Of a DNA stretch of 45,869 bases, positions 6,242 through 45,759 are shown piece after piece. The position numbers and the translations under genes are program-made. The DNA comes from a virus: the IMG/VR virus record IMGVR_UViG_3300044699_000094, positions 1 to 45,869 of that record. The stretch is one strand, 5' to 3'. The first letter of the stretch is position 1. Each line of letters begins with the position of its first letter. Below the pieces are notes generated by a model. The model ran no database searches, was not told the DNA's origin, and was given only the letters and a program-made list of their open reading frames with translations.

Positions 6242-6884
6242 ATGGACTTTGACGATTTCATGCGCGGCTTCGGCGGAGACTTCTTCGAGCAGTCCCCCGA
6301 GGGCGCCGACTGGATGCAGACCCACGAGCATCTCACCCCGATCATCCGTCACCTGGTCGCGGGCGTCGAAGGCGGACACATCTCCGCTGGGCAGATGATC
6401 GACGGCTGTACGCCTTGGCCCACCCGGACATCTCCCCGCAGGCACTCGACGTGAAGATGCTGTTCTCCGCCGCGGCCCACGCCATCGAGACACCGTCGAT
6501 CATCGACTTCTTCCACGACATGCACATCATCCACGTCCCCGGAGCGTTCGCCCTGATGTGCGCCACGCACAACAAGGATCGACTGCCCCTGTGGCCTGCC
6601 GCCGACACGCAGCCTGGCCGATGCCACCGATGTGGAGAAGGCCGCGGTGCACCACTGCATCAAGGCCTGCTTCGCCGTGGCCATCCCCGACGAACTGCAT
6701 GTCGAAGGCGACGGAGGACGACTTTCGCATCGTGCGCTATAACGAGCAGGACTTCGTCGACAAGCCGGATCTGATGGACAAGCTGGTCCGCAACTTCCGT
6801 CGCGAACTCGACGATGAACTGCCCACCGTGATCCCCGAGCACGAGAAGCCCGACGACAAGGGTGGCTTGGGGCGATGGATGTGA
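6242..6884 (+). CDS. Hypothetical protein, about 210 aa, frameshifted
   Basis: Starts MDFDDFMRGFGGDFFEQSP after CCAACGAAAGGAC. The first frame continues to HISAGQMID. A shift near 6410 gives YALAHPDISPQALDVKML and IIDFFHDMHIIHVPGAFAL. Another near 6603 gives DATDVEKAAVHHCIKACF. Another near 6705 gives EDDFRIVRYNEQDFVDK and a final acidic part ending GGLGRWM. It is a mostly helical, acidic protein. No family is recognised. It follows the AAA+ gene and could be its partner, on position alone. Confidence 0.6.
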
Positions 6885-43252: not shown

Positions 43253-43277
43253 CTGATGCCCTGTGGAAAGGATCATC

Positions 43278-45236
43278 GTGGCTGGACGCCAAGATAGCAG
43301 TGAGTTGCAGCCGCAGACGGCCGCTGAATACGCCATCGCCTACGCCGGGCAGCTGAGATTGCCGGTGGCCCCGATCCCGCCAGGAGAGAAGTTCCCCAAG
43401 GGAATCAACCGCTGGCAGGAGAAAGCGACCAACGACGCCCGCGCCGTGGCTGCTGCCTGGGCCAAGCACCCGGAGTGGGGGGTGTGCATCGTCACCGGCC
43501 CTGTGGCCGGAGTGTTCGTCCTCGACGTCGATCCCCGTCACGGCGGGGACAAGAGCCTGACGGACCTGGTGGCCGAGCATGGCCCGCTGCCGTTCACCTG
43601 GATGACCCAGACCGGGGGCGGGGGCGCGCACTTCTACTTCCGCTACCCGCAGGGGCGCACGATCACCAACGGGGCAGCGACGCAGCTGCCCGCCGGGTTG
43701 GATGTACGCGGCGTCGGTGGGCAGGTGGTCGCCCCTCCGACGATCCACCCCTCGGGCATCGCCTACCGCTGGGCCGACGAGCACTGCCCGCTGGAAGACT
43801 GTCCGCTGGGCGTGGCCCCGGAATGGCTGCTGGACATCCTCGATCCACCGGAACCGCTGGCCACGGTGTCCAGGCTGCCCTCACCGCCCTCCGATTTCCG
43901 TCATGACGAAATGACCCCGGCCGACTGGGTGCGAGCCAACCTGGCCTGGCAGCCCGAGTTGGTCCAGGAAGGCTGGCAGTACCTGGAAACGAAGGGCAGC
44001 CGAGAGTACTGGGTGCGTCCGGGGAAGAACCCCCGCGATGGCAAGAGCGCCTCGCTGCTGTTGCCTGACGGTCCGCTGTACAACTTCTCCCCGGAGGCCC
44101 CGGTCGACGTCGAGCGCGGCCTGTCGTTGTTCGAGTTCATCGCAGAGAGCCGCTTCGGCGGGGACATGGCAGCCTGTGCTCGCCACGTGCGCCTCGACCT
44201 GATGCCACGCCCGACGTCGCCGGTGCTCAGGGTGGAGGAACCGCCGAAGCGTCAGCTGGTAGTGAAGGGCGACGTGTTCCTCTACGACCTGGCGATCGAC
44301 GTCCCGGCGCGCTGGGGCCACGGCTCGGAGATCTTCTGGGCCTCCGGCGAGTCGCTGATCCTCTGCGGGGTGATCGGCTCCGGCAAGACGACCTTGGCTG
44401 GTCAACTCGTCGCCGGGATGTGCGGGCTGAGCCCGAAGCTGCTCGGCCAGCCGATCGCTGAGGCTCGCCGGGTCCTGGTGCTGGCCGCTGACCGTCCCCG
44501 ACAGATCGCTCGGGCGCTGGTCCGTCACTTCCCCGAGGCCGAGCATCGGGCCCTGGTCCACGATCGCCTGGTGATCCATCAGGGCCCGCTGCCGAAGCTG
44601 ATCACGACCGATGACGAGCAGCTGATGCGTCTGGCGCAGGAGTTCGATTGCGACGTGATTGTCGTCGACAGCCTGAAAGACCTGGGTGGCTCGCTGTCCG
44701 ATGAGGCCACCGGGGCGGCGATCAACCGCTCCTTCCAGCTGTGCCTGGCGCAAGGCGTCGACGTGATGGCCTTGCACCACACGCGCAAGGAGTCGAACAG
44801 CGAAGGGGCGAAGAAGGAGAACACCCTGGCTTCGGTGTACGGCTCGAACTGGATCACCGCCGGAGCGGGCTCGGTGCTGATGCTCTACGGCGAACCGGGG
44901 GCCCTCGATCAGAAGTTGATGCACTTGAAATCCCCGATCGACCCGCTCGGCCCCTTCGACGTGATCCATGACAACCACGCCGGGACCACGGAGATCGCCA
45001 AAGGCTGGGACTGCTATGCCTGGCTGGTTCGGCGGGGTCCGATGGGGGCGACGATCGCAGAGGCGACGCAGTCGGAGCACGGTCGCCCGATTACCACCGA
45101 CTCGGTGCGCAAGAAGACCGAACGGAAGCTGGAAGCACTGGTCAACGACGGCCGGGCGCGCAAGGAAGGAAAGGCCTCTCCGGGGGTCGCGGTGCGCTAC
45201 TTCGCGGTGCCGCAGATGGACATCCGCCCCCACTAA
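43278..45236 (+). CDS. Primase-polymerase / RepA-type helicase fusion, 652 aa
   Basis: The start was moved from the upstream GTG (43,263) to GTG 43,278, which has GAAAGG at the right distance. N-terminal PrimPol: VLDVDPRHGG (catalytic Asp83/Asp85), TGGGGAHFYF (113-121) and GLDVRGVGGQVVAPPTIHP (140-158). C-terminal helicase: CGVIGSGKTTLAG (Walker A, 363-374) and CDVIVVDSLKDL (Walker B, 458-469), then MALHHTRKES. The last about 60 residues are a winged-helix-like end (ATIAEATQSEHGRPITTDS). It primes and unwinds DNA. With no phage DNA polymerase seen, the host polymerase presumably copies. A candidate origin follows at once. Confidence 0.9.
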   Translation: MAGRQDSSELQPQTAAEYAIAYAGQLRLPVAPIPPGEKFPKGINRWQEKATNDARAVAAAWAKHPEWGVCIVTGPVAGVFVLDVDPRHGGDKSLTDLVAEHGPLPFTWMTQTGGGGAHFYFRYPQGRTITNGAATQLPAGLDVRGVGGQVVAPPTIHPSGIAYRWADEHCPLEDCPLGVAPEWLLDILDPPEPLATVSRLPSPPSDFRHDEMTPADWVRANLAWQPELVQEGWQYLETKGSREYWVRPGKNPRDGKSASLLLPDGPLYNFSPEAPVDVERGLSLFEFIAESRFGGDMAACARHVRLDLMPRPTSPVLRVEEPPKRQLVVKGDVFLYDLAIDVPARWGHGSEIFWASGESLILCGVIGSGKTTLAGQLVAGMCGLSPKLLGQPIAEARRVLVLAADRPRQIARALVRHFPEAEHRALVHDRLVIHQGPLPKLITTDDEQLMRLAQEFDCDVIVVDSLKDLGGSLSDEATGAAINRSFQLCLAQGVDVMALHHTRKESNSEGAKKENTLASVYGSNWITAGAGSVLMLYGEPGALDQKLMHLKSPIDPLGPFDVIHDNHAGTTEIAKGWDCYAWLVRRGPMGATIAEATQSEHGRPITTDSVRKKTERKLEALVNDGRARKEGKASPGVAVRYFAVPQMDIRPH

Positions 45237-45250
45237 GAAAGGGGGCGGAT

Positions 45251-45398
45251 TTGTCCACGTTGGTTGTCAGCGATGTCCACGTCGTTGTCCGCGTTCTGAC
45301 CAGGGGTTATGTAAGATTTGTCCGCGTTGTCCGTGCCTTGTCCACGTTGACGTGGACAAGGCCGTGTCCGCGTTCTGACCAGGGCGTTTGTCCACGTA
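45251..45398. other. Candidate replication origin: iterons of TTGTCCRCGTT
   Basis: At least nine units of the type TTGTCC(A/G)CGTT lie in 148 bases: 45,251, 45,273, 45,285, 45,318, 45,327, 45,338, an inverted one at 45,349, 45,364 and 45,388. TTGTCCACG differs from the actinobacterial DnaA box TTGTCCACA at one base. Two units form an inverted pair (CCTTGTCCACGT-TG-ACGTGGACAAGG, 45,336-45,361). TGTCCGCGTTCTGACCAGGG is repeated exactly at 45,286-45,305 and 45,365-45,384. It lies directly after the PrimPol-helicase gene. An origin or autoregulatory operator is likely. Confidence 0.75.
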
Positions 45399-45421: not shown

Positions 45422-45661
45422 ATGGAGCCCCCTGTCCCCGCCTCGCAGGAGGTGGCCCGGCACGCCATCGGTCAGCGAATGCGTACCCACGATCCCGCCT
45501 GTCCCGGCCCGAAGTACGCCGAGCGCTACTGCCCCTGTGGTCGGACCATGTTCTCCTACTGCCCTGCCTGTGAAGACATGTACTTCGTCGGGGTGCAAGA
45601 CGGCGAAAAGTGCGAGCACTACGCCGAGATCGCCCAATATCCGGAGCAGGGCTACCTGTAG
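45422..45661 (+). CDS. Zinc-ribbon protein, 79 aa
   Basis: ATG 45,422 follows a perfect AAAGGAG. It reads MEPPVPASQEVARHAIGQR, DPACPGPKYAERYCPCGRT and FSYCPACEDMYFVGVQDGE. C-P-C and C-x2-C plus other Cys residues form one or two zinc ribbons. It lies just after the iteron block and before the SOS box, so it may be the first protein controlled by the origin region. No family is recognised. Confidence 0.75.
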   Translation: MEPPVPASQEVARHAIGQRMRTHDPACPGPKYAERYCPCGRTMFSYCPACEDMYFVGVQDGEKCEHYAEIAQYPEQGYL

Positions 45662-45680
45662 AAGCGAAAATCCTCTTAAC

Positions 45681-45725
45681 TCGAACGTATGTTCGCTTTG
45701 ACATCGGGAAAACCCTCAAAAAAAT
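45681..45725 (+). promoter_or_regulatory. LexA/SOS-type box overlapping a promoter
   Basis: TCGAACGTATGTTCGC (45,681-45,696) matches the Gram-positive/actinobacterial SOS-box consensus CGAACnnnnGTTCG perfectly, and 15 of 16 bases of the TCGAACnnnnGTTCGA form. One base further lies TTGACA (45,698-45,703), 16 bases, then AAAAAT (45,720-45,725). LexA bound here would cover the -35. The promoter would read rightward through the junction into the left early operon. Confidence 0.65.
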
Positions 45726-45759
45726 CGCTCTGCGCTCGACTCCCCTTTACGTCTTATGG

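Follow-up and report, generated by a model that had tools for sequence, protein, structure and literature searches.

An iteron array, box and hairpin beside a phage PrimPol-helicase gene as a probable replication origin

Helicases encoded beside their iterons

The C-terminal domains of SaPI Rep and SCCmec Cch2 recognize iterons that lie just downstream of their own genes (PMC7581432), and PICIs share a pri-rep-ori order (PMC6092414). The locus described here resembles SaPI and PICI, in which a primase and an initiator-helicase, sometimes fused, are followed directly by an origin of iterons (PMC6092414, PMC7581432). It differs in having a RepA/DnaB-type RecA-fold ATPase, a PrimPol rather than the SaPI primase, and a genome with phage structural genes; its iterons are accompanied by a box and a hairpin, and the array may be inverted or overlap the gene. 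In SCCmec, the C-terminal domain of Cch2 likewise binds direct repeats right downstream, and the priming partner, CCPol-MP, prefers the same site (PMC7581432). That system, which we liken by description, differs in its MCM-like helicase, its A-family polymerase primase and its AAGTG 5-mers.

The oriV of RSF1010 has the same helicase fold and an AEP-type primase, together with iterons and the hairpins ssiA and ssiB. However, RepA, RepB' and RepC are separate proteins there, with RepC as the iteron binder, whereas the three roles appear to be fused in one chain here (PMC4234260). ORF904 of pRN1 carries a PrimPol, a helicase and a C-terminal winged helix in one protein, with a downstream cis element that includes a stem-loop, but its helicase belongs to SF3, the stem-loop is large (100 nt) and iterons are absent (PMC4234260). 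The PrimPol-PV1 families PrimQH and All3500, which we liken by architecture, combine an AEP primase, a RepA/DnaB-type helicase and a winged helix in mobile elements; the winged helix has been proposed to serve in origin recognition, and the paper makes no use of the word iteron (PMC5862659). In an actinophage, gp43 of corynephage BFK20 is by annotation a PrimPol plus RepA-like protein (cited in PMC3973330), and its C-terminal end is winged-helix-like by eye. Its sequence does not match significantly (helicase E 0.03), so that we rejected it as a homologue, and the roughly 550 bp inspected around its gene end showed no obvious repeat array. A literature search, conducted mostly outside subscription journals, found no paper on iterons beside this actinobacterial helicase family. 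The general kind of origin is thus already known; what appears to be new is the helicase fold, the fused architecture, the cassette of box, spacing and hairpin, and the pairing of helix and iteron.

The PrimPol-helicase and the adjoining repeat block

The window, by which we mean the whole stretch of DNA analysed, is an entire IMG/VR record of 45,869 bases, which may itself be a fragment. The minus strand carries terminase, major head and tail genes; at the right end, the plus strand carries genes for an exonuclease, an HNH protein and the PrimPol-helicase. The relatives of the helicase that were found in genomes are actinobacterial, and the host is therefore probably an actinobacterium. About 1.5 kb (34800-36330) lacks long genes, has a GC content of 0.44-0.6 and a G skew of up to 0.94, and includes a long G run (35929-35946); the stretch resembles low-quality polyG assembly filler, and the join may be artificial. 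The GC skew of the window is dominated by this junk at 34.8-36.3 kb and cannot decide the position of the origin, because the rest of the signal is swamped.

The PrimPol-helicase, identified by Pfam matches, an AF2 model and Foldseek, is a protein of 657 aa with a Prim-Pol domain (aa 24-181; PF09250, E 8.6e-40) and a RepA/DnaB-type RecA-fold ATPase (aa 358-511; PF13481, AAA_25, E 2.7e-17). The closest solved sequence to the ATPase was RSF1010 RepA (1g8y; hmmsearch E 1.7e-4), and Foldseek matched the AF2 model of the helicase (pLDDT 92) to the same protein (1nlf) with a TM of 0.71 by target length. Judged by sequence and model, the helicase is of the RecA-fold RepA/DnaB type close to RSF1010 RepA, and not of the MCM-like type of SaPI and SCCmec. 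In the model, the last 80 residues (winged helix at about aa 580-650) form three helices and a two-stranded wing. A fold search with the winged helix only gave weak E-values (0.03 and up), and many of the top matches were winged-helix domains. The recognition helix, H3, comprises residues 286-302 of the 331-aa helicase segment, equivalent to residues 612-628 of the full-length protein.

The repeat block starts 14 bp beyond the helicase stop codon (45234-45236), which places the putative origin directly 3' of the rep/helicase gene, as in the pri-rep-ori order of SaPI and PICI. Non-random short direct repeats adjoining an initiator gene, by which iteron-type origins are recognized, are present. 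Within 148 bases (45251-45398) there are ten units, each matching TTGTCCRCGTT at no fewer than 8 of 11 positions: nine direct units, starting at 45251, 45264, 45273, 45285, 45318, 45327, 45338, 45364 and 45388, and a single inverted unit at 45349-45359. The nine TTGTCC(A/G)CGTT units counted in the sequence-only reading correspond to the direct ones, provided that the degenerate units at 45264 and 45327 are included. The inverted pair that it reported is also present (45335-45347 and 45350-45362, with arms of 13 bp), as is its exact 20-base direct repeat, TGTCCGCGTTCTGACCAGGG, at 45286-45305 and 45365-45384. This 20-base repeat is composite: an iteron is joined to another conserved motif, which on the minus strand is the GGTCAG box. 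The exact core TGTCCRCGT occurs in 8 of the 10 units and only twice outside the block in 45.9 kb; in 200 Markov simulations there were never more than two exact cores per 150 bp, as against eight in the block. The features of the locus are listed below, with sequences of minus-strand elements given in the sense of the cassette.

43263-45236, plus strand: PrimPol-helicase gene
45096-45146, plus strand: codons of recognition helix H3 (TDSVRKKTERKLEALVN), placed by DSSP on the AF2 model
45222-45250, minus strand: terminal hairpin ATCCGCCCCC[TTTCTTAGT]GGGGGCGGAT; conserved, overlapping the helicase stop codon, p=0.005 against shuffles, z -6.4, positioned alike with respect to the iterons in most relatives
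45251-45261, minus strand: iteron AACGTGGACAA, adjoining the hairpin
45264-45274, minus strand: degenerate iteron ATCGCTGACAA, at a conserved spacing position
45273-45283, minus strand: iteron GACGTGGACAT
45285-45295, minus strand: iteron AACGCGGACAA, right after the box
45296-45306, minus strand: conserved box CCCCTGGTCAG, 9/11 against the family consensus CCGCAGGTCAG
45307-45317, minus strand: AT-rich stretch ATCTTACATAA, which fills the conserved gap of 33 bp and is a candidate unwinding element
45318-45328, minus strand: iteron AACGCGGACAA
45327-45337, minus strand: degenerate iteron GGCACGGACAA
45338-45348, minus strand: iteron AACGTGGACAA
45349-45359, plus strand: inverted iteron GACGTGGACAA; with 45338-45348 it makes the 13-bp palindrome 45335-45362
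45364-45374, minus strand: iteron AACGCGGACAC, after the second box
45375-45385, minus strand: second box GCCCTGGTCAG, 8/11
45388-45398, minus strand: iteron TACGTGGACAA

The iterons flank the AT stretch at 45307-45317 on both sides, yet they form one continuous array. Beyond the array, the small protein encoded by 45422-45661 (79 aa) has CxC/CxxC-like motifs (CPCGRTMFSYCPAC) and probably binds zinc; a ribosome-binding-like AAAGGAG for this gene is found at the array end. The AT-rich noncoding DNA that follows the small gene (45660-45735) contains the only promoter-like match of the region, at 45698-45725.

A cassette shared with relatives of the helicase

Alignment with mycobacteriophage helicases yielded 27 loci in viral contigs and 72 in actinobacterial genomes, and arrays were sought after the helicase stop as repeated 9-mers, with no motif presumed. 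In most loci an array starts near the helicase stop, often 0-30 bp past it, and contains 5-11 copies, often exceeding every other 500-bp stretch of the locus. The helicases that carry arrays span actinobacterial phages, prophages and Streptomyces integrative elements, and the genes flanking the cassette vary among them. The array overlaps the 3' coding end of the helicase in seven loci (L056, L061, L066, L071, L091, L108 and L112), lies upstream in L042, L063 and L107, and is found 1.5 kb downstream in L104. The sequence-only reading had regarded relatives that keep the helicase and lack the block as evidence against an origin. One such sublineage was found, the Omegavirus/Gaia-type mycobacteriophages, in which the helicase is present with no array in its flanks; most other relatives carry the array, and the association of helicase and array is therefore common, not universal. 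A spacing-cassette scan of the whole Squint genome likewise revealed no array, only triplet-like repeats. The winged helix of L025 and other Omegavirus helicases reads KKAER, near the window type, though no array was found.

The cassette shared by the relatives comprises an AT stretch, the box, iterons spaced about 33-12-9-15, and a GC hairpin whose loop is AT-rich. The spacing ranges are 32-35, 12, 9-10 and 13-17, followed by the hairpin; past the box, typical iteron intervals are about 12, 9 and 15-16 bp. The box lies between iterons, usually 1-3 bases ahead of an iteron on the same strand, and is matched at 10-11 of its 11 letters at the helicase end of 36/104 loci, compared with 50/2431 control stretches. 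An AT-richer stretch precedes it in many loci, within the 32-35 bp gap; averaged over the relatives, AT content shows only a slight rise, and an 11-bp AT stretch is present here and in several relatives. The relatives' hairpin is GC-rich, stands about 10 bp past the last iteron, has a loop of TTTA, TATA or similar, and beats shuffles at p <= 0.06 in most loci. The 5' arm of its stem is C-rich in some lineages and G-rich in others while the hairpin stays, indicating that structure is kept rather than sequence. In Streptomyces arrays, inverted iterons are found past the hairpin.

In the window the cassette is inverted. The minus strand reads an iteron, ATCTTACATAA, CCCCTGGTCAG, iterons at 33, 12, 9 and 13 bp, and then the hairpin. 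When the window was scanned for five 8-mers at the family spacing, the top scores fell at the block, on the minus strand, and none arose in a shuffled control; the value of 13 in the window was known when the last range (13-17) was chosen, and the spacing scan is therefore not fully independent. Since the hairpin holds its position relative to the iterons when the module flips with respect to the gene, it is most readily regarded as belonging to the origin rather than to the end of the gene; a priming site, as for the ssi hairpins of RSF1010, and a terminator are both possible functions. The sharing of this cassette with the helicase loci of relatives supports the earlier proposal that the block is the best candidate origin in the genome, and we consider that it is very probably the replication origin of the phage.

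No DNA-level relatives of the window were found among phage records, and an Rfam search gave no match. When viral contigs were searched for clusters of three TGTCCRCGT, 20 contigs were returned, none with a helicase of the PrimPol-helicase's family; these were mostly evenly spaced tandem repeats, coding-looking or simple. Scanning for the box with a TCACG iteron gave 18 stretches, near chance expectation, two of them beside the helicase, and scanning for the box with the window form of the iteron gave one stretch, in apparently coding sequence.

In the Streptomyces elements the N-terminal domain of the helicase is DnaB-like and not a PrimPol, which identifies the helicase, winged helix and origin as the constant core. 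One of them, L086 (2397-10798), encodes a tyrosine integrase, a NikA-like protein and a MobA/VirD2-type relaxase. Its helicase combines DnaB_N with AAA_25 and is accompanied by an origin of this kind, and the locus is probably an integrative mobilizable element. Beside the integrase, at 257-2326, the product of a single predicted gene matches Pkinase as well as the XhoI restriction endonuclease family; this is possibly a defence gene. Similar loci of helicase and array are present in dozens more Streptomyces genomes. C/G homopolymer runs of at least 12 bases, perhaps assembly artefacts, occur past the origin cassette in L045 (about 6335-6360) and in the flank of L072.

Iteron sequence, recognition helix and alternative binders

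The window iteron, TTGTCCRCGTT, reads AACGYGGACAA in the sense of the cassette. L059 has CCGTGGACA and L058 has CCATGGACA; both belong to the nearest relatives (44% identity). The iterons of Streptomyces are CGATCACGC and CGTACACGC, and that of Mycobacterium and Gordonia is CAATCACGC; further lineages have CCTTCACGC, AACTCACGC, CCAACTC, CCGCCAGAC and others. In a first set of 25 loci, whose ATPases share less than 70% identity, helicases with RR at positions 294-295 were accompanied by [CT]ACG iterons in 18/18 cases and those with different residues there in 1/7 (Fisher P 4e-5). A new search then provided 52 further loci outside the data from which the rule had been formed, among which nonredundant loci with clear arrays were counted. 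All 12 of the held-out RR loci had CACG iterons, and the non-RR loci L173 (KKAMR), its near relative L177 (KRAQR) and L194 (KRAKR) had GGACG or GGACA. Exceptions were L186 (HR with TCACG) and L031 (SR with TACG), and possibly the held-out loci L183 and L201, which are ambiguous or contrary. For the combined nonredundant loci, RR was found with [CT]ACG in 30/30, compared with 4/12 for non-RR (P 4e-6).

Iterons with GGAC accompany K291, in the window, L058/L059, L173/L177 and L194. This pairing holds for 4/5 loci with K291 and 0/37 others (P 4e-5), a P value that is descriptive because the rule was noticed after these loci had been seen; L032 has K291 but no GGAC. On the ATPase tree the GGAC type requires three changes, at least two of which are forced by well-supported (starred) branches, and the clearest switch is that of L173/L177 beside L166. 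Only two of the switch pairs are placed on branches with good support, which does not suffice for a sign test. Since repeat sequence and helicase tail change together, the helicase is suggested to read its own repeats rather than to borrow DnaA. This favours the second proposal of the sequence-only reading, binding by the helicase encoded just before the block, and suggests that recognition occurs via the helicase's own winged-helix tail.

A block that is an origin could also be bound by a separate initiator of the phage, or jointly by the helicase and a partner, the winged helix tracking the iterons through shared ancestry. RSF1010 offers a precedent, pairing a separate RepC with RepA (PMC4234260), and the backbone of our ATPase tree is poorly resolved. 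However, iteron distance tracks helix distance when ATPase distance is controlled (partial Mantel r 0.50-0.59, permutation P 0.0005), and of the 314 seventeen-residue segments of the helicase, those that correlate best with the iteron start at 278-287, in the H3 region. The genes flanking the cassette differ between relatives. We therefore regard this arrangement as unlikely.

The actinobacterial DnaA box is TTGTCCACA, and DnaA boxes are nearly constant across the actinobacterial hosts concerned. Four direct units of the block begin with TTGTCCACG or ATGTCCACG, only one or two letters off this box, a near match that had led to the suggestion that host DnaA is captured or competed for. The block also adjoins a replication gene, and DnaA would on this view either start phage replication or be titrated. 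No exact TTGTCCACA or TTATCCACA is present anywhere in the window, though, and three units have G at box position 7, while all exact units have G, not A, at position 9. Moreover, the homologous arrays of actinobacterial hosts (Streptomyces, Mycobacterium, Gordonia and others) have unrelated iterons, such as CGATCACGC, CAATCACGC and CCTTCACGC, which vary with the helicase's own winged helix. Iterons that differ by lineage while DnaA boxes are nearly constant mean that DnaA does not explain the family, and we rejected DnaA capture, which is very improbable for the window too. Similarly improbable is a role of the repeats as operators, or as another kind of regulatory site, acting on the small gene downstream (45422-45661) or on the replication operon, the hairpin then being a terminator. 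The array does lie between the helicase and the next gene, and the window's hairpin runs over the helicase stop codon, but the arrays of several relatives overlap the helicase coding end, sit inverted upstream or lie 1.5 kb off, the hairpin is fixed relative to the iterons even when inverted, and a terminator scan does not call the hairpin at 45222-45250.

The cassette, its conservation, spacing and inversion, and the matched variation of helix and iteron can be read directly from the sequences compared. Taken with these, an origin recognized by the phage's own PrimPol-helicase is the probable explanation of the block. The winged-helix tails of the helicase subunits would bind the iterons and load the hexamer, the 11-bp AT stretch by the GGTCAG box would melt, and the PrimPol domain would prime the exposed strand, possibly at the adjoining hairpin. 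The candidate unwinding element, at only 11 bp, is short for that role, which counts against this part of the scheme.

More tentatively, and with rather less confidence than for the window itself, actinobacterial phages and integrative mobilizable elements may share a portable, self-recognizing replicon. In such a replicon a RepA/DnaB-type helicase would read the downstream iterons with its winged helix, by a simple helix-to-repeat code; its N-terminal module would be exchangeable (PrimPol in the phage, DnaB-like in the Streptomyces elements), the fixed hairpin would be the start site of the primer, and the origin would flip relative to the gene. The findings describe a SaPI-like layout on a different helicase fold, across actinobacterial phages and mobile elements, and give locatable origins for many actinophages and prophages. 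The natural series of helix-iteron pairs makes the recognition by a helicase of its own origin directly testable, and these origins may aid vector building for actinobacteria.
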